A stretch of 64,000 nt of DNA from Bolinopsis microptera (Eukaryota > Ctenophora > Tentaculata > Lobata > Bolinopsidae): NCBI RefSeq assembly GCF_026151205.1, contig NC_087079.1, positions 3,242,730-3,306,729 on the forward strand. Direction: 5' to 3'. The notes beneath the pieces are model-generated. The model ran no database searches. It was not told the DNA's origin and saw only the letters and a program-made list of their open reading frames with translations. The position numbers and the translations under genes are program-made. This document shows, in pieces, positions 3,666 through 60,690 of the stretch (within the stretch, counting starts at the first letter, position 1; each line of letters opens with the position of its first letter).

Positions 3666-4253
3666 AGAACTTCTAGAAGGTTCGTGCAGGGGGCCGGGGT
3701 AAGGATGTCGTCCAGGTTGATGTAAGCTTCAAGGGGTAAAGGTTGGATACTAGATGGGGATAGACTACGTAGGTAGAGATATGGGAATTGGATTGAAAAG
3801 TTCGTAGTATTCCATTGCTATAGTTGTGAAGTGTAGATGGTCGAATGATGATGTCTCCTGTCGTCTGTTGAAAGTTATATAGTATCGATACGAGATATGT
3901 CATACAGTACGTATGACATTGCAACATTTGAGATCATGTCAAAAGTTATGGCAGCTCTTGTTGTTATGGACCCCCATCAGCCTGTATCAGATGATATGAT
4001 GAGATCACATCCTCATGGGACATGAGCCGATCAAATAGAATAGTCAAAGAATATGTGAACTCTAACTAAGCACTGTAAATACATTATTTTTTGCCGCGAA
4101 TTCGCCGCGATTTTTCGATTTTTTGCCGCGAATATGCCGCGATTTTCGAAATTCCCGCCGCGAATTAGCCGCGAATTAGCCTAGTTTGGCTTGTCGCGGT
4201 GCCGCGATTTTTGGCCAAAATCACCGCGAAATCCTTTTGTCCCTGATGTAGAA

Positions 4254-20800: not shown

Positions 20801-23800
20801 CTGATGATTGAGCGAGCTTTTTTCTGGAGGTTTAGCTAGAAGTTCAGGGCCATCGTACATCACGCACACCGCCTGACTGGAGGTTCCAGTCTATAAGAGA
20901 GTTGGTGCAGACAGCAGTGTGGCCTGCTGTTGTCAAGAACTTTCACGAGAAACAGTCCTAGAGCGGACTTAAACGCTGAGAGATCTTCAATAGTGTTCAC
21001 GGGTTTTGGTAGTAGGTTCCACAAGTTTGCAGCTTTGACAGAAAAAGAGTTCTCATACATGGTTTGTAAGTAGGAAGGGCATTTCTTAGCAAGTGGTGGT
21101 ATTCTTGCTTTGGTTCTGAGGCGATCATTCTAATAGAACTTCATTTTAATGTCATTTGGGATTTTGCCATTGAGGACTTTCCAGGCATTTATAATTATAT
21201 ATAATTAGATACATATGTATATATCTCTCGTCTTCTTTGGAGAGATGGGAGGTTAAGGAGTTTTAGTTTCTCCCAGTAGTCCATGGCAGCCTGATATCCT
21301 GCGGGTGAAGGCCGAAGGGTCTTTGAACTGCTTCCAGTGTTTGGATTTCTTGTACTTTGTGAGGATTCCCAAGGGCGAAGGGAGGAGCAATACTTAAGCC
21401 TATTTCGGATGATAGTGTTGTAAAGGGAGGGGGGGGGGGGGTGTCATGAGTATTTTTGAGAGTCCCGACGAAAATGCCAAATTCTCATTCTCAAAAATTG
21501 TTTTTGAGTATTTTTGAGAAATGTTTCCAGGCGAAAAACTCATTCTCAACAAGAAATGCGGCCGCTTTTCTTTTGTGGATGGCCGCTCAATTTCCCGATC
21601 CGTGATGGCGTATTTTATCATATTCCATACAACCTGGGGACCCCAGTCTTTGCTGTTTAAAAGCATGCAGATATGGCGGAGTGACAGGCTAAGCGCCGCC
21701 CAGTTAATATAATAGTCCATATTGAATAACTTGATAATCGTGTATATTTCTATGCAATGTAACCATATGTTTATTGTTTATGCAACCTGACAGTGACACG
21801 GATCTGTGCAAAATAATCTACTAACTCATTAAAACTAACTAACTAATTAAAATAATAATAATATGCTATAAATTAGTGCCTAGTGGGATACGTACATGGT
21901 GAAATTAACAATGTACTTGGTCAGTTCAGCGCCGCACGTCAACAATTATTTAATTTAGATTATAGCGCAAAATAACTTTGTGCAAGTAGGAACGTGGGCT
22001 ATAACTGTGCGCGAGGGCACATACGCTCGCTCGCTCGCAGGACGGTCGCAAGCTACCATATACGGAAAAAACCTCTTGTCCTTGACTCTTTTGTGCTTTC
22101 GGCATTTTGAGTCATGGATCGGGAAAAAATTGATTTTGAGTATTTTCGGACCACATTGCACTGATATGAGATGATTTGGTATATCACTATTTTTGAGTGG
22201 ACAATTTTTGAGGAATGAGAAATCCATGCTGAATTTCTCAGATTCAAAAAAATTTTTTGAGAAATTCCCGGCGAAAATGGTCAAATTCTCAGATTCAAAA
22301 ATTCTCAAAAATATTCATGACCCCCCCCCCCCCCCTCTATAGAGGACTCATGACAGTTTGGTTTATGATCTGTTTTACTGGGCCGCGCTCAGCCTGTCAT
22401 TCCGCCAAATCTTTATATGTTAATGAACATAATAGCCTGGGGTCCTCAGGTAATGATCTGTTTTGAAGTAACCATGAGGCCATCCTTTTAGCATTATTGG
22501 CAATTATTTTCATGTGGATAGTCCATTGGCCGTCTAGGGTTCTCAATGAGAAGCAATGTTGGAAATAAAATTGAAACGGAATCTTTATTAACACGAATTT
22601 TTATTTTAACAGTTGTCGAGGACGAGGTTATTAACAGTAATTGTTGAGGTTTTCTCTTTTAATCGTCGTTTTATTGTGGACTTTGTTTCATTATTTTCTA
22701 TATTCAAGATAAAGAACGTAAAACTTCTTACTGTGTCACACATTCTGGTTAATATATTACTTTACGATTAATTTATTATTAACTTTCTTACCTTATCGCT
22801 CTTTACGACTCGCTATTGTGTCTTAATTCCTATTCTTAATAATGTACAGATCATACAATTAATTGTTCAGCTTATAGAATAGCAACATTATTTGTTCTTA
22901 TCGGATATGGATTATTATTTATGTCGCATCCAACTGAATGGTAGATTATCATTCGTTAGCCTATCCAAAGTCGTAATATTTTATTGAATTACAAAATATG
23001 TCTTAGAATTACTAGTTCTCAGTCAATTGTTGTGTTACTTTATAAATGATAACTTTGTAGTCCGGACTGCAGTATCTAAAGGGTTTCTATTTTTAGTTTG
23101 AAGACACATCACGAGGTTGATAACATGAATATTGAATTCCTGATCCACACATGTTGCAGTTGGTAGTTTTGCAAGGATATAATTTTTGAATAACTTTTTA
23201 TCCATTTGTCTAAACCGCTTGAGCTTCTTGGATACTACCCGCACGTGACCACGAGTACACTTGTATTTAGTAACTACACTTGTAATTATAGGTAAAACAG
23301 GGTGATGTGACGGAGTTGATTAGAGGTTCCTGCGTCACGTAATGACGAACCTCTAACGATGATCATTAACTTAAATTACGGAGCTTCCGTCGTGTTACCA
23401 TTTTGTAGAACGCGTCGTACAAGTCAAACTCTCTTCCGCGGAGTTCATGTTACTTTCAATCCATCTTTGTCGGATGTTTTCCATTTTGGGAAACATCTAT
23501 TTTTGTCATTTTTCGTGCCCTCAATTCACCTGATTTGTTCTGTATTCTGCGTAGGTAGAACCTGTTTGCTTGTATAGAGTATGTTTGTCTAATTTGTTAA
23601 TAAAAAGCACTTAGAGTGCCCGAGAAAAGCTTGCCCCTAAATTTCATGTTTTTTTTTGTAATTAAATCGTATTTCTAGCCTCGATCAACCAGCTTTTCGT
23701 GACGGTGGTATAGTGGTCATACGAAAAGCTGCCCCTTAGATTTAAAGCTTTTAGTGTAATCTTTAAACGGCCAGCTTTTCGTTGCAGTTGTAAAGTGGCC

Positions 23801-35800: not shown

Positions 35801-38800
35801 GGGGGGGGGGGGGGGGGGGGGGGACTTGGAGTCGTTAAAAATAAAAACTATTCAGTCCTTTACTATGAAATGCAGGTCACTTTGCATAAATGACCAGATT
35901 ACATTTGTTTTGATACCTGGCAAATGCTCGTGCATTAGATTGGCCGTTACTGCAAGCTGATCACTATATCCTCATCACGTGTCAAAACAAACGCGCATTT
36001 CCTCCTTCAAACCAACACCAGCCTCTCTCCAGCCTCTCTCCAGCCTCTCTCCAGCCTCTCTCCAGCCAACACCAGCCTCTCTCCAGCCTCTCTCCAGCCT
36101 CTCTCCAGCCAACACCAGCCTCTCTCCAGCCTCTCTCCAGCCTCTCTCCAGCCAACACCAGCCTCTCTCCAGCCTCTCTCCAGCCTCTCTCCAGCCAACA
36201 CCAGCCTCTCTCCAGCCTCTCTCCAGCCAACACCAGCCTCTCTCCAGCCAACACCAGCCTCTCACCAGCCTCTCTCCAGCCTCTCTCCAGCCTCTCACCA
36301 GCCTCTCTCCAGCCAACACCAGCCTCTCTCCAGCCAACACCAGCCTCTCTCCAGCCTCTCTCCAGCCTCTCTCCAGCCAACACCAGCCTCTCTCCAGCCT
36401 CTCTCCAGCCTCTCTCCAGCCAACACCAGCCTCTCTCCAGCCTCTCTCCAGCCAACACCAGCCTCTCTCCAGCCTCTCTCCAGCCTCTCTCCAGCCAACA
36501 CCAGCCTCTCCCTCTCTCCAGCCTCTCTCCAGCCAACACCAGCCTCTCTCCAGCCAACACCAGCCTCTCTCCAGCCTCTCTCCAGCCAACACCAGCCTCT
36601 CTCCAGCCAACACCAGCCTCTCTCCAGCCTCTCTCCAGCCAACACCAGCCTCTCTCCATCCTCTCTCCAGCCTCTCTCCAGCCAACACCAGCCTCTCTCC
36701 AGCCTCTCTCCAGCCTCTCTCCAGCCAACACCAGCCTCTCTCCAGCCAACACCAGCCTCTCTCCAGCCTCTCTCCAGCCAACACCAGCCTCTCTCCATCC
36801 TCTCTCCAGCCTCTCTCCAGCCAACACCAGCCTCTCTCCAGCCTCTCTCCAGCCCTCTCCAGCCTCTCTCCAGCCTCTCTCCAGCCAACACCAGCCTCTC
36901 TCCAGCCTCTCTCCAGCCAACACCAGCCTCTCTCCAGCCTCTCTCCAGCCAACACCAGCCTCTCACCAGCCTCTCTCCAGCCTCTCTCCAGCCTCTCACC
37001 AGCCTCTCTCCAGCCAACACCAGCCTCTCTCCAGCCTCTCTCCAGCCAACACCAGCCTCTCTCCAGCCTCTCTCCAGCCTCTCTCCAGCCTCTCTCCAGC
37101 CAACACCAGCCTCTCTCCAGCCTCTCTCCAGCCAACACCAGCCTCTCTCCAGCCTCTCTCCAGCCTCTCTCCAGCCAACACCAGCCTCTCTCCAGCCTCT
37201 TTCCAGCCTCTCTCCAGCCTCTCTCCAGCCAACACCAGCCTCTCTCCAGCCTCTCTCCAGCCAACACCAGCCTCTCTCCAGCCTCTCTCCAGCCTCTCTC
37301 CAGCCTCTCTCCAGCCAACACCAGCCTCTCTCCAGCCAACACCAGCCTCTCTCCAGCCTCTCTCCAGCCAACACCAGCCTCTCTCCATCCTCTCTCCAGC
37401 CTCTCTCCAGCCAACACCAGCCTCTCTCCAGCCAACACCAGCCTCTCTCCAGCCTCTCTCCAGCCTCTCTCCAGCCAACACCAGCCTCTCTCCAGCCTCT
37501 CTCCAGCCAACACCAGCCTCTCTCCAGCCTCTCTCCAGCCTCTCTCCAGCCAACACCAGCCTCTCTCCAGCCTCTCTCCAGCCTCTCTCCAGCCAACACC
37601 AGCCTCTCTCCAGCCTCTCTCCAGCCAACACCAGCCTCTCTCCAGCCTCTCTCCAGCCAACACCAGCCTCTCTCCAGCCTCTCTCCAGCCTCTCTCCAGC
37701 CAACACCAGCCTCTCTCCAGCCAACACCAGCCTCTCTCCAGCCAACACCAGCCTCTCTCCAGCCTCTCTCCAGCCTCTCTCCAGCCTCTCTCCAGCCAAC
37801 ACCAGCCTCTCTCCAGCCTCTCTCCAGCCAACACCAGCCTCTCTCCAGCCTCTCTCCAGCCAACACCAGCCTCTCTCCAGCCAACACCAGCCTCTCTCCA
37901 GCCACCAGCACCAAACTTCACAGCGGTCACTAGAAAGTCATCGGCTCTTCTTCACTTGAGGTGGCCGCTTTCTGTCTCACGATCTAGTCTACCACTGGCG
38001 GTGAACCGATCCATTCCACTTTCACCCGGCATACAAATTACTTGATTATACTAATTACCACAATTATCCCCATTATTCATCTAATTATCGTGATCAGTCT
38101 GCCCTATCTCGTGGCATCAGCTTCATTTCCCAGATATCATCACTGAGCTGGTAGCCTCACTTTCCGTTCCTTTTCTTCTTCTTAATTAAAGCTGCTGATT
38201 TTGCGCCACTTAGCCACTGTTTTCAAGGTTCTTCTTTGGACGTGGATGATAAAATGTGCGTGTATTTTACAAATAAAATGCGTATTAATAAGATATCCTG
38301 TTCTAAAGTATGTGTTAGATTTACTTTATCCCTACCTCTGATAATGCTCGGTAAGGTGGTTAAATTCTGAAGAAATCTTGGTAGTAATCTAATTGTAAAA
38401 GACATTAAATAAATAAAAATAGAATAAGAGTGTTAATCTAATTACTGAACGGTATTAGCAGTACCACTGGATGAGGTAATGATTACAAAACCTCAAACTC
38501 CGCACGCCGTCTGATTACAAAACCTCAAACTCTGCACGCCGTCAGACTCAGAAACTCACGCCGGCCCACCAGTTAATCACCGCACAATCCCGGACACGAT
38601 CCGTACAATGTAGTTGTAATGCTGCTATTAGCTTACCTCATGTGAATTTATTACGGTTTTGGATCCCCAACGGCAGCTGCCGGCAGGTTCTTTTCCAACG
38701 TTTTCCTGATTTTGGCAGTAATTTTCGGTGACCTCACAGGCCAGCGTCAAAATGGTCAACTATAATAGTAATAACTCATTTTATGTCAATATCCCCCTTC

Positions 38801-49560: not shown

Positions 49561-50991
49561 TGATTGTTCTCCTTGTTACCTTCCCAGGGAACATTAGTCA
49601 TTACCGGCTGATTTGTGATTAAATTTAACGTTAGTTGTAGTCTTGGTCGCGCGTGTAAATTTATGTCCATTGGTTGCACTTCCGATTAATACACGTTGCA
49701 TGTCCCTTGTCTGGATATTATCTTAACGGGTGAAAATAGTTGTTCCAGCTATTATCAGTATCACGCCGGCCTGTGGCATAACTAGAATTAGACCAATATG
49801 TGTGGGTGCGACTGCGTATACGTTAATTTCTTTGTTGATATTCTTGCATCTTGTGAATGGGTCACACCGAGGGCATGAAAACAGAAAATAATCGCTTCCC
49901 GGGCAGTTAGTAGCAGTTTCTTTGCACTTTGCTCCTCCTGTGTACAAGAGCCGCGCGCTGAGTTAGATTGTAAAGCCTGCTTATTTGATTGTAAAATCGC
50001 AAAAACGCGCGTTTTAGAGGGTTCAATTACGCCAGCAGCCAGGCTATGTTTACGTTTATGAACATAATAGCCAGGGGTCGACCCAGGTAAGCTTCTCTCA
50101 CAGATGCGAGAAGCTCTTAAAGAGCGCCGCTCATAAAGATTGGCAGGTAAGTTGTATAAGCAGGCAACAATAATGAATAAGCTTTTAATACACTATTTTA
50201 CCTTAAAAGTAACGTTTCCTCCACAGGAGGAAAATTAGGGACATTTTAGATTTTGTGTTTTGAGTTATTTCAAGATTTCCAGAAAAGTCTCATTTTGGCC
50301 CGATCAAAAGTTTGCAACTTTAAAGGATGAGCACTCCTGCGCGCAGTGTTGTGACCTCCCTTCGTCGTAATTAGCTCGTATTCAGATTGAACAATTTTGA
50401 ATTCAAATAAATGTTGTTTCTTTTAGATTTGAATAAACAATAAGGATTTAGTCCGAAAGTAATTTGTCTACTAAATAACATTTTGAAATTATGAACAAAA
50501 TTGGTAAAAATTTGCCATAGTTGTGACCAAAAAACTACGCGCAGAATTAGATATTTCTTCATAAACGCGTGAACATTTTTGAGTTTAACATTGAATATCT
50601 TAGCTCGGTTATTTTAATACTTAATTTTAAAGTATCTATCCGATAACTAAACATTTTATCTTTACGACAGTATAATTTTTTTTTGTATATTTGCTAAATT
50701 AAAAAAACAGTAGGAATAGAAACGTCGAAGGTCTTGCGCTTATTTCAGTCACAAAATATACCCTAATCATAAACTTCATAAAATCCACTGAAAATGATGT
50801 CTAAAGGCATATCTAGTCCTTACACCTTCCCAAATCATTTAGCAAGGATTCAGAGCCAGCTTTTAAAATTAGCTTTCGAATAACATTGTTAAGACATAAA
50901 ACTATAAATAAATGAGTGCGTTTTTCTCTTTCGTCTCAACAGTTTCTCTTTCATTTTAACACTATATATTAGTAAAAGCAATCAGCGATCT
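49561..50991. other. Intergenic, AT-rich
   Basis: No coding exon supported. About 50055-50095 has a partial match (ATGAACATAATAGCC, GGGGTCGACCCAGG) to the 79-bp element family. About 50325-50380 has a GCGCGCAGTGTTGTGACC block that reappears inverted at 55570-55610. Confidence 0.45.
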
Positions 50992-53900
50992 TTATTCATC
51001 ATTAAAGGAGTAAAATAATTGGTCCTCGTTAATGTTTAGTGTCTGATTACAGTTTCGGTCCGACCTCCACACCTGAAAAGATATTGGGGGTATTATCAGT
51101 TAAGTAAATGGAAAAATCATATTTCCATCATAAAACTATGAAAACATTGAAACTAATGTTTTTGAAGGCTCGCCTATTCGTTTAAGCAATCAAATAGTCA
51201 GTGCAAAGAACAGTTGAAGGCACCGGGAATGTTTCAAATAAATCCTCTGTCTACTATCAGACCACACACTCCACTATGCACTTCAATGTATCGTATAACA
51301 ATGGCAGTTGAAATGTGTTCCCGCCATTTTAAAATCAAAAATGTGCGCAGCATCTTACGGGTTATGCGCCGTGATCAACGGTCACGGCGCAATGGTTATG
51401 CGCCGTGACCATTGATCACGGCGCATACACATTGCGTTTAAATTGTCGTATAAATGTCCAGCTTCTCTGTGAAATTTGGTTGACTCGACTAATTTAAAAA
51501 TTTAATACTCTTTGTTTCATTCTAGTTTAATTGTATTTCTATTATGGTCGGAAAGAATTATAATGTTTTTTTCTTCTACTGGGCCACATTCAGCCTGTCA
51601 TTCCGCCATATTTTCAACGGCTATGAACACTAACATATGAACACTTATATGAGCCTGGCCCCATGTAAGATGTTTCTTTGTAGTCAGCAGTGTATTACTA
51701 TTTCGGTTTTATAGTCGCATTTAATTCAGTTAATATTAATGGTTTCTTCACCTCTTCAAAGTTCAATGTAATTGGTTTGGAGGTCATTTGAAATAAGGAG
51801 GTAAAATAACTCACATAGCTTCCGGCAAGTTTCACGGATATAGTGATTGAGTTTCTAGTCAACCTAGCCTCTTTGCCTGACTGATTTCTTGTTCGGCAGG
51901 GTGACTGCTTAAACGTCAACTTCAACCTCTTCCACTGCATCGAATCGTACTAGTAGAATTTGTACCTGAAATATTACATTTAGTTTAGCGACCTTCACAT
52001 GCGAGTCAAACTTAGTATTTCTGAAAGTTTCGCCAAATTTCATTGATTTCAGAGGGTGTGGCACGTCACTCTCTCCTTTTAGTTTTAATTATTGTCCATC
52101 AGTCCTACCAGCAGTTTTTTGATGACATGATAAGGGCGATTCAACCGCAAGTCAGGTCAGGGAGAGTTTGGAGACCAGACAAGGAACTAGATTGTGCTGA
52201 GAGGGACTTAGTCTGTGAAGCGGTGAGAGGAATGGTCCAGCCGTACAGCAGAGCAAGTATTGGTTTTGGAGAATGGAAGAAACCGTGGAAGAAGATGAAC
52301 GCCCGGGAACAACAAGCTGAGGTCCTTCAGAGAGTTAAAAGAAACCTCGAGCATGAAAGGGAGGTTCAATGCGGCTCTCTTGAGATGCAGTCAAGATGGG
52401 GACAGTGGAGGGAAGAGGTTATGAAGACGGACATGAGCTGGCACACACTCTTTAAGTATGGTGATTCGCTCACAGGTTTTATGCTCAGTGCGACTTATGG
52501 TACTGTGGTCACACCAAATTGATTTTTTTTAATAATCCAAATACAGGCAGCGATTTAGTCAACTTAAGTTTGTCATTTATGTAATTGAACATTAAAAATG
52601 TATCCTTCATAGAATTTTGTATTATCTCGAGGGTATAAAATTGTCAATTGAGAAACACGTCATAAATCTAAACAAATAAGTTCATTAAAATAGCTATCAA
52701 TCAGTAAATGAACGAACCTGTACATCTAGATGATGTAGGTCCACCACTTGTAACTTGTCAGACCGGTTGTTGTACAGCTTCCTGTTCAGCCTGAAAACAC
52801 ATTTCTGTTACCATGACAACGTTACCATTACAAGTTACCCGTGATGGGGAGTGTCATGAGGTTACGTGACTGATAAAGTTAATACACCTCCTCCCCACTA
52901 ATAGTGCACTAACCTGGAAATGAGGGAGTAGACTCCAAAAAGTGAGGACCAGCGTCATGTCAGTAACTTTTAAAAAAGCCCGGGCCTATTTTAGATCCTG
53001 AAATTAGTGCCAGGAGTCTGTTTCGTGGATTATATTGTTGGCTTTAAAGGGATTTAAAAAGTGTAAACAGTATAAGGGTATTTATAAAACACATAATTAC
53101 TGAACACGTGTCGAGATTAACTTAAAACGTGAAAAATCAATAATCAAGTAATCACACGTTTCCTTGCCCCTTCCCTTGTCTGAAAAGTGAAAACTATCCC
53201 CTCCCCTTTCACCGAACGTGTGTCTAATCACGAGCAATTTAAATCAAACACGTAAAAACAAGTAACACATAAATGCGAGTACAGAGGCAGTCAACTACAT
53301 ATCATGAATGGTAGTCAACTGATAGTGCGGAGAAACACGGCACACACGTTAGGCCAGGAATGTTCCGCGCCATATAAGGAATAATTCACTGGGTGTACAA
53401 ATAAACAATGTGGTTGGGCCGTGAACTGGTGGTATTTTTTACACAACTTGTTTTAGTGGGCTTGTCAAGTCCTGCTCGATTATAGTAGTATAGAAGTGGG
53501 GCGGAACACCATAGTATGAAGACACAGGCACTTTTAGAGTCCATTTTAATATCACTTTTCACGCTCAGTGCTTCAGACTTTAAATTAAAACTGGCACTTT
53601 CCATTTTAACTTCGGCTAATTGATCCCTTACCAATATAAGATAAGTTGTAAATGTAAGTATGAATTGGGGGTCAAATAAGACAGTAGTTTTTATGTTCTT
53701 ATGTGACTTTTTAATCTATAATTCCGATCCCGGCCAAAAACTCAAAATTGGCCGGGGCCGGGAATAAACACCTCCCCCGGCGCCGGGAATCCCGGTCGTT
53801 CAGTGCATTACAGCACAGTAAACAGAGCCAAAGTTGTTACTTGTCAAATGCTAAAATAGAATCTCTAGAATACAAATAAATTCATTCGATCACGGATCAA

Positions 53901-57375: not shown

Positions 57376-58023
57376 TAGAAGACATTTTACTAACTGGCCC
57401 TTGGCGCCTCTAGTCCTATCTGAGTACGCACGTGCGGTTTGACACTGCGCGTGTACCGGCCTTTAGTTGTACACTCATTTATAATTTACCGTTTTAGTTT
57501 GCTGTGACTTGAGTGTAAAGCGTAACAAATGTGGATGTGTTCGTCTGCTATGCTTGGTGTAATAGTTGCAAATCTTGCTTACGTTATAAGTAGTGTCACA
57601 TAGTGAGTTAGAACTTAAAAGCTTGGTGCTTGGTGCTTGTCCAACTGGAATGAAGACATGCATTTCATACCTACCCGATCCATTTTTATTAGGACTGTGT
57701 TGTGTTGATATGACATGTTGATATATCAACTGTGGTACGAAACAGGGAGTTGCTTAGGTGTTACGTTGGGAGCTATAAATATGCATAATTTACATGCCTT
57801 TCTGTGTGACTTCAATCTTATTCCAGGTGTATCTCGGCTCATGCGTTATCGTAGAGTGATAATTCTTTTTTCAACCGGTCATAAAAAGTCTCCTCTCCTC
57901 TGGTTATAGGCTCGTTAGTATCGTAAATTGTTAATGTATTCTTAATTAGTAATTTAGTCGGCCCGCACGCTCATTTTACCTGTATTTCTATATGCGCGGA
58001 TCAGAGCAACTCACATAATTGAC

Positions 58024-58102
58024 TTACCTGAGGACCCCAGGCTATTATGTTCATTAACATATAAAGATTTGGCGGAATGACAGGCTGAGCGCGGCCCAGT
58101 AA
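58024..58102 (-). mobile_element. 79-bp mobile element, copy 2, with 9-bp target duplication
   Basis: Identical over all 79 bp to the reverse complement of 22375-22453. It is flanked by the perfect 9-bp direct repeats ATAATTGAC (58015-58023, 58103-58111), different from those of copy 1, which shows independent insertion. Confidence 0.85.
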
Positions 58103-59652
58103 ATAATTGACGTCACAGGTTCAAATTGTTTTGGCTGGATATCTCGGCGCGCGAATGAAATACAACTTTGCGGATTTCACTAAAGTGGTTTATACGATTA
58201 ATGTAATAAAAGGATTTGCACGAGAAAAAACTTTTTCTAAGGTCCCCTCATCCTTTAACTTTGCGGATTTCTGTACTCTGATTGGCTGAATTGTGTCACG
58301 TGCTAGCTTACTGGGCCCCGCGTCAAGTGCTAGCTGCTTGACATTGGAATGTGCCTTAACGGGTGATACTCGTAAAATATCTGTTCCATATATTGGACCG
58401 TCGACGAGTCCAACTCGGCGCGCGTCCTGGTAGGTTGTAAACCTACAAAATGTGCCAAGCGTGCAATTAATCACTCCCAGGAAATTTTACTGACTGGCGG
58501 GCTTGCTAGAGGTAATCATTTTTTAATATCATGTTTATACTTTATCGTCGTGCGTGACGTAAAGCTCGCTGCTCGCACACGTTTTACAATTTGAATTCAG
58601 CCATGTAGTCATATCATGACATTGACAACCATGACATTAATTTGCAAAGTTATAAAGCTGCGACCTTTTATTTGGCCCAAAATCATACTTTTCGGGATAA
58701 CTTAAAATTTGTAATAACAGATAAGCACTAAACATGACATTCCGTGAATTTAGTGGAAATTATATTTAATGTTTAAGTTGTAGCTTGATGCTTGCTCTAA
58801 CCAGAGCCCTCTCGCCCGCAGTAGCGCGCGACCGCCGAAGGCGGCAAAAGAGGGCTCTATAGATGGCCACAAACTGGCACCACAAATCGTGGTGCCAGAT
58901 TTCCTCCCATATTTCTGATGCCGCGCGCGACGTGTTTGGTGTTAGTCATGTCTAGTTACTGCAACTGTGAAACAAGCGCGTCACGCAGTACGCGTAGGCA
59001 CATGGCTATGTGTAGCTTGATGCACTACTGGGCCGCGCCGCGCATCTTCTCGCAACCACGAATGCAGATCGGCGAGATGCGAAGGATTGACATCGTGAAT
59101 CAATTAAAAGCCTACACATTTTGGTGTATGAGATTGAAAATAGTTTATACGACGTTTCTGGGCTGAAATACAAAAATTCGAGTGACCGTGAAACCCTGAA
59201 TTAAAAAAGGATGTAGCCGAAAACGCCCGTATTGCATTTAGTACAAAAATGCAATAATTAAGTCCAAATGTTTTAAGCATCATCTAGAGAAATGATAACC
59301 GTCGAGAAATCGTTTTTAACACAAAAAGCTAACGAGTTTCCCTTTCGTATCAGACTATCGGCTCCAAAAATAGACATCAAGAAGCGCGAGGAAAATACAT
59401 GATACAGCGATAATCAGTTTCAGTTTCAGTTTCAGTTTCAGTCACATTTTTGATTTTCATCAAAATTCTTAGTTTTGCGATTCAATATTGTATTGAATTT
59501 ATTTTAATCTTTGAGGATCAGAACAAACTTTTCGTTTTAATTACACGATTCCTTACAAAACAAAATACATAAACATAATACCATAGTCTCAAAAAATATA
59601 AATTCATCAGAAATTTATAAGTACATCAATTTCAATAACGCCATAAAGTAAC

Positions 59653-60429: not shown

Positions 60430-60690
60430 ATAAACAAGAAATGTGGCCGCTTTTATTTTGTGGATGGCTGCTCAATTTCCCGATCCGTGATGGCGTATTT
60501 TATCATATTCCATACAACCTGGCCTGGGGACCTCAAGCTTTACTGTTTATAACTATAAGCATGCAAATGTGGGCATGGTGGAGTGACAGTCCGAGCGCCG
60601 CCCAGTTAATTCCATATTCAACATTGATTTTGAAAATCGTGTATATTTGATATTTTTATGCAACCCTATATTATTTATTGTTTAGGGGTC
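60430..60690 (+). repeat. Dispersed repeat, copy 2
   Basis: Same block order as 21545-21790 with extra short insertions (for example GGCC before GGGGACCT). Its centre (about 60513-60607) is a diverged relative of the 79-bp element. Confidence 0.75.

Follow-up and report, generated by a model that had tools for sequence, protein, structure and literature searches.

The window, that is the whole stretch of 64 kb of DNA analysed here (C8:3242730-3306729 in genome coordinates), contains two identical copies of a 79-bp sequence in opposite orientation, each enclosed by an exact 9-bp duplication of its own. The sequence-only reading had described this pair as a 79-bp mobile element, inserted twice and recently, with older relatives nearby, and its account of the copies, their orientation and their private duplications is borne out at all coordinates. 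The locus raises the question of what kind of unit so short a sequence represents and how it came to its sites. The short copies are the two ends of a giant element joined together, with the interior lost, and it is somewhat more probable than not that they are terminal arms sealed by error-prone end joining after the interior was lost around the time of each insertion.

Short copies in the window and in the genome

The copies in the window, their parts and their relatives are as follows.

22375..22453, plus strand: short copy 1, 79 bp, the giant's left arm and right arm joined
22375..22416, plus strand: left arm of copy 1, the first 42 nt of the giant's left end, A-type
22416..22453, plus strand: right arm of copy 1, the last 38 nt of the giant's right end, A-type
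22366..22374, plus strand: target-site duplication of copy 1, TGATCTGTT, left
22454..22462, plus strand: target-site duplication of copy 1, TGATCTGTT, right
58024..58102, minus strand: short copy 2, 79 bp, identical to copy 1
58103..58111, minus strand: target-site duplication of copy 2, GTCAATTAT (ATAATTGAC on the plus strand), left on the minus strand
58015..58023, minus strand: target-site duplication of copy 2, GTCAATTAT, right on the minus strand
49943..50090, plus strand: remnant, from the right-hand side, of a longer family member (75% to the 343-bp form, 74% to the 373-bp form)
51577..51668, plus strand: diverged short relative (first match 51577-51629)
21632..21704, minus strand: old diverged relative within a larger repeat
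60523..60606, minus strand: old diverged relative within a larger repeat
58792..58845, plus strand: empty site in a repeat that is uninterrupted here and has short copies inserted at other loci (L001, L061)

The arms of copy 1 overlap by one base of microhomology at 22416. The relatives proposed by the sequence-only reading are real, with two details corrected. Those at 21.6 and 60.5 kb are probably a single old insertion seen twice, once in each of two copies of a larger repeat, because their flanks are shared when the sequences are compared by eye, and the 50-kb relative, initially matched at 50051-50090 (plus strand), is part of the longer form at 49943-50090. A search of Rfam gave no matches. 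A long array of tandem LSSLSPANTSLSPASLQP repeats at window positions 35914-38045 has a strong GC skew, is open in several frames and is probably a minisatellite.

The genome searched comprises 264.65 Mb in 232 contigs. The 25-nt left end was found at 4,145 places (2,039 + 2,106) with at most two mismatches, and at none when the reversed pattern was used as a control. This corresponds to about one left end per 64 kb, and two copies in the window are therefore ordinary. The full 79 bp gave seven matches at 100% among 41 scored, of 1,303 first-look candidates, and these seven copies possess seven different exact duplications of 8 or 9 bp, as expected of the separate recent insertions proposed at the outset.

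A positional sample was drawn from 90 of the first 100 exact left ends listed, all on contig C1, together with the two window copies. A right end lies within reach of 81 of these 92 left ends; the 11 others may include a few longer retentions. Exact duplications flank 64 of the 81 copies (8 bp in 48 and 9 bp in 16), and nine of the 17 remaining copies are off by a single mismatch. Copies in this sample are 69-142 bp long, the 142-bp case being a nested pair, and a 56-bp copy (L146) is also bordered by an exact 8-bp duplication. In a widened set of 122 copies, 20 of them (L097-L116) selected by similarity to the window copy, exact duplications are present in 100, 69 of 8 bp and 31 of 9 bp. Random pairing of left and right flanks produced an exact match of 8-10 bp in 9 of 20,000 cases. 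Left ends thus number in the thousands, and most copies read have varied exact duplications of 8-9 bp.

Empty sites were identified in repeats that were hit by insertions at different points. The joined flanks of L001 align with window positions 58792-58845 at 94.4%, the junction being bridged gaplessly, and those of L061 match L001 at 90.6% and the window at 88.5% in like manner. Segmental duplication or a satellite-like spread of the short repeat, for which the sequence-only reading had named shared flanks as the mark, would account for a few groups (L014/L015, L061/L064, L137/L138, L139/L140, L141-L143 and the 343-bp set L117-L131), and is refuted for the bulk of the copies read, since few pairs share flanks among the 132 copies compared, most have their own exact duplication, and empty sites exist. 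As an origin of the family it is barely credible. In the 9-kb stretch behind L020 only a one-ended copy was seen.

Giant elements and other long forms

The full left arm occurs at 379 places in the genome. Among the first 100 of these, 25 run on into GGGCTGAGTG and four into near variants, as counted by eye. Right arms of long forms number 67, of which 30 are of the A-type found in the window, the types being assigned by hand. The search for longer elements with the same ends, suggested by the sequence-only reading, gave five A-type pairs of left and right arms in correct orientation and 21-31 kb apart.

C1:7281994 to 7309357: E1, right flank occupied by another copy
C1:21675633 to 21706802: E2, exact duplication CAATTAAGT
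C2:17404436 to 17383349: E3, exact duplication CGTGATAC
C2:21706792 to 21683554: E4, exact duplication ATAATTATT
C3:14455131 to 14423894: E5, exact duplication AACTTGGG

The exact duplications of E2, E3, E4 and E5 are 9, 8, 9 and 8 bp long, respectively. Pieces of E2 and E5 were compared and are 99.0% and 99.8% alike in interior blocks and 98.6% in the left 1.6 kb. The left variants AAATCTTTAT and AAATCTATAT are paired with the A-type right arm in giants and short copies alike. The short form most likely descends from the long elements, because its subtypes mirror theirs. The description of a 79-bp mobile element is wrong or lacks support: the sequence consists of the two terminal arms of a 21-31 kb element around a centre that differs in most copies, and nothing observed demonstrates independent movement of the short form, though it may occur. 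Arm lineages of short forms that would have no long counterparts were considered and rejected once the 67 long right arms were found; the right-arm counts of 614 and 904 are of copies without G at the start of the pattern, by which long right arms were excluded.

Forms of intermediate length are also present. A 568-bp derivative (L166) is flanked by the 8-bp duplication CTTTTAGT, and L082 and L132-L135 hold forms of some 350-373 bp, each with flanks of its own; the duplications are exact in L132 and L134 and have one mismatch in the others. A mobile 343-bp family was rejected as a candidate: L084 and L117-L131 represent one insertion carried within a larger repeat, with the duplication AATTCGCG exact in 15 of the 16 loci and changed at one base in L129.

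RecQ-like helicase exons were identified in E1, on the strand opposite to the left-to-right direction, with homologous frames in E2 and E5. They match PF00270 (E 6.6e-9), Helicase_C below its cut-off, and TIGR00614 (E 2.5e-7, far below the full-length cut-off), and their nearest solved structures are RecQ4 and BLM. A shared exon of 105 amino acids (L160:1774-2088, minus strand) has 62 matches in the genome, and relatives of it with open frames of some 470-510 amino acids are located at C1:5440464, C9:273800 and C5:20273271. On the strand of the right arm and upstream of it, at a distance of 1.6-2.0 kb (in one case 6.1 kb), the exon accompanies 22 of 30 A-type long right arms, two of six B-type, none of 25 C-type and none of six others; one match lies on the wrong side of a long right arm. 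It has no match in Pfam or PDB; its ACRHHVLE string is reminiscent of the CxxH motif of some DDE transposases.

DDE_Tnp_IS1595 exons are present in E1 and in a sixth element, E6, read only over its right 9.4 kb. The possibility that the giants encode a Merlin transposase was set aside, as the PF12762 exons sit in nested, GG-ended Merlin copies. Such nested elements at L169:4625-5447 and L158:6835-7760 have GGCAGTATCTAGATAGCCCG inverted repeats at their ends and a transposase exon, and the one in L169 has its own 8-bp duplication, TAATTTTG. Merlin-type transposase frames of about 320-337 amino acids, apparently open, are found in the genome at L091-L096 and other matches. Nested in E5 there is an open frame of 1448 amino acids (L161:3656-7999, minus strand) with Helitron-like N-terminal and PIF1 helicase domains. 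The giants also carry nested LINE sequences, and Helitron-like and reverse-transcriptase frames and an RT/RNase H-like frame, the last recognised by eye, that look nested.

Formation of the joints

In the positional sample, left positions 26-32 are unchanged in 77 of 81 copies, and 69 of the 81 right arms belong without any change to one of five subtypes. With subtype sites masked, 64 of the 81 joints are distinct and 59 are unique in the sample (73 distinct unmasked, a count that includes subtype base changes). The commonest masked joint is shared by 11 copies; its left ...CTCTAT and right CTATGTT... have several bases in common, as read by eye. An ordinary MITE family, in which one 79-bp deletion derivative was amplified and the centres were altered by later mutation only, would be small, non-coding and numerous with target duplications, as observed; yet the arms are nearly unmutated and the joints vary in length as well as in sequence. 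This contrast refutes the MITE reading unless centres mutate far faster than arms, and we regard it as very improbable.

The joints resemble end-joining scars, with microhomology and fillers. At least 2 nt of microhomology was found in 20 of 43 simple joints, compared with 17% for random breaks in the same ranges, a null built from A-type arms only. Apparent fillers of at least 6 nt are present in 38 of 97 joints, templated in part from the arms: the longest match averages 8.7, compared with 5.2 for shuffled sequences. This score is inflated, because about a dozen of these "fillers" are right arms with point changes. Some fillers prolong the arm's own palindrome, for example TATTATGTTAATGAACATAATA and CGCCGAATCTCTATTCGGCGGAA, as expected of snap-back priming.

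The breaks are confined within narrow limits, at most about 46 nt of left arm and about 38 nt of right arm being kept in short copies. Break points were read in 102 copies, a set that excludes the similarity-picked L097-L116 and includes list-picked copies, some chosen for odd joints (L144-L156, L172-L188). With five odd copies left out, the left break of the 97 others falls at 33-47 nt (96 at 46 nt or less) and the right arm measures at most 40 nt (95 at 39 nt or less). The limits are taken as 46 and 38 nt because an occasional extra base is about what chance would provide, and right-arm values of 26 nt or less are mostly due to point changes. Against shuffled sequences, the hairpin of the right arm is significant (z -3.6), and the left stem folds no better than they do (z -0.8); with only the right-arm fold significant, a structural cause is not supported for both break points.

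The time at which the joint is made can be approached through duplicated loci. Three complex centres occur at more than one place (L137/L138, L139/L140 and L141-L143). All share flanking sequence on at least one side and so look like duplications, and none of these repeated complex joints was seen at independent sites. As these groups were picked by their shared centre, they are circular as a test of centre stability, which rests on two further pairs found irrespective of centre by scanning the flanks of 132 copies, L014/L015 and L061/L064; the joint is the same within both. A 343-bp insertion in 20 loci of one repeat (L117-L131, L189-L208) serves as a control for the long form, with the qualification that its ends are diverged and may not be excisable. 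It is full length in 16 loci, and the other four comprise two with small internal deletions, one interrupted and one cut. None of the 20 has collapsed into the short form, and long copies are thus not prone to spontaneous collapse. Each joint seems to form a single time, either upon or close to insertion or in the course of one excision.

The window's own centre, a simple one, is found at seven sites with seven different exact duplications, a pattern that a preference for simple joints would produce, as would unaltered movement of some short copies. That the two window copies are identical is most readily explained if one simple joint formed more than once. A short form that is itself mobile, its centre being remade at most hops, for example because an 80-bp duplex, too stiff for its own ends to meet, breaks, would fit these seven independent sites, the simple joint common to 11 of 81 copies, and the great excess of short copies over long ones. 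The three repeated complex centres with shared flanks look duplicated rather than transposed, and the arm subtypes of short copies occur in long elements too, both of which count against such mobility; we consider it doubtful.

Loss of the interior around the time of each insertion, our preferred reading, is inferred from these patterns, and the evidence on whether the loss occurs at integration or at a later excision is indirect. In the sequence of events that we envisage, the giant's two ends would be held and protected by a transposase (a guess), and the protected ends would be integrated in a concerted way, making the target duplication of 8 or 9 bp. The intervening DNA would be cut away or trimmed as far as these ends, after which microhomology-mediated, theta-type end joining would close the gap, leaving an end-to-end scar as the only trace of most insertion events. 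The stronger proposition, that two ends only are the usual product of insertion, with the interior removed about 46 and about 38 nt from the termini and with private centres similar to V(D)J joints, is offered tentatively, as a possibility that we hold to be somewhat less than even.

Abortive gap repair is the textbook source of internal deletions, and its hallmark, an internal deletion with end-joining marks in which ends and duplication are kept, is seen here. On that account a giant inserts and later leaves by cut-and-paste excision, refilling from the sister chromatid halts no more than about 46 and 38 nt in, and end joining follows, so that every short copy records the departure of one giant. 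This would explain the duplications, the private joints, the end-joining features, the arms matching those of giants, and the few long copies beside thousands of short ones. The confinement of the breaks is less easily accommodated: all 97 left breaks lie at 47 nt or less although left arms of up to about 100 nt were detectable, and only about three rows resembling joints just past the boundary, one of them L166, were noted by eye among the first 100 of the 379 left arms. A strong block to synthesis at the left stem also lacks support, its fold not being significant. Given the sharp limits of 46 and 38 nt, we prefer integration-coupled loss; abortive gap repair we judge unlikely, if still worth serious consideration.

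Comparison with known systems

Among the titles and opening lines of abstracts read in the open-licence literature, no account of such end-to-end copies or of the giant family was encountered, which is weak evidence of absence. The way in which long transposons give rise to short derivatives is generally deduced from one old deletion that later multiplied. The genome studied here appears to contain many separate deletion events, in the thousands should the sample be representative; in most of them the duplication is intact and the joint can be read. They form a large natural record of end-joining products in a ctenophore germ line. Long elements with the same ends lie alongside, so that excision repair and ends-only integration become directly testable against each other, and the 343-bp insertion carried within a repeat provides a useful clock for the stability of long forms. 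In Mnemiopsis, DNA-transposon insertions are present in more than 90% of the promoters that take part in distal chromatin interactions (PMC12221973).

The giant family (21-31 kb, RecQ-like helicase exons, 105-amino-acid exon) is not placed in a superfamily here. Termini in the copies read are TTAC...GTAA. Duplications of MULE (Mutator) elements are mostly 9 bp, and a MULE-like affinity had been hinted at by the sequence-only reading. The hint found no support, since 8-bp duplications are commoner than 9-bp ones in the set of 122 copies, and none of the 88 genome matches to the MULE domain PF10551 falls within E1-E5 by coordinates, a count in which intron-split or decayed copies could be missed. 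The TTACTGGGCC string of L087 was rejected as a link, being an 11-bp chance match outside the MULE of that locus. The hAT duplication is strictly 8 bp, and 31 of the 100 exact duplications here are of 9 bp. The KDZ (Kyakuja-Dileera-Zisupton) domain PF18758 gave no matches in this genome, nor in control genomes. Kolobok elements duplicate TTAA, whereas the giants duplicate 8 or 9 bp of varied sequence. The likeness between them is that Kolobok includes DNA transposons with a RecQ helicase gene, KolobokH and Kolobok-1_CCri (PMC9587614). With Merlin/IS1595 the giants have in common duplications of 8 or 9 bp and the Merlin fragments in their interior, and they differ in their TTAC...GTAA ends, those of Merlin beginning with 5'-GG (PMC8101967). 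The Merlin exons found lie in nested GG-ended copies with inverted repeats of their own.

The short copies are MITE-like in being short and non-coding and in possessing the ends and duplications of a larger transposon, and unlike MITEs in that no single founding derivative is apparent, with 64 distinct joints in 81 copies and the commonest in 11. The six small derivatives of DTM_MK in rice are similarly non-coding, with a larger element's ends and target duplications, and are traced to one deletion event (PMC4423477). In contrast to that one event, most copies here have a joint of their own, and the breaks lie within about 46 and 38 nt of the termini.

V(D)J coding joints combine sharp outer limits with imprecise joining that includes nibbling, short inverted additions and fillers. 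As an analogy only, the short copies show the same combination of sharp limits and imprecise joining. The joint of a short copy differs in lying within a transposon copy, and the likeness is one of joint pattern, not of a RAG-like enzyme or signal.
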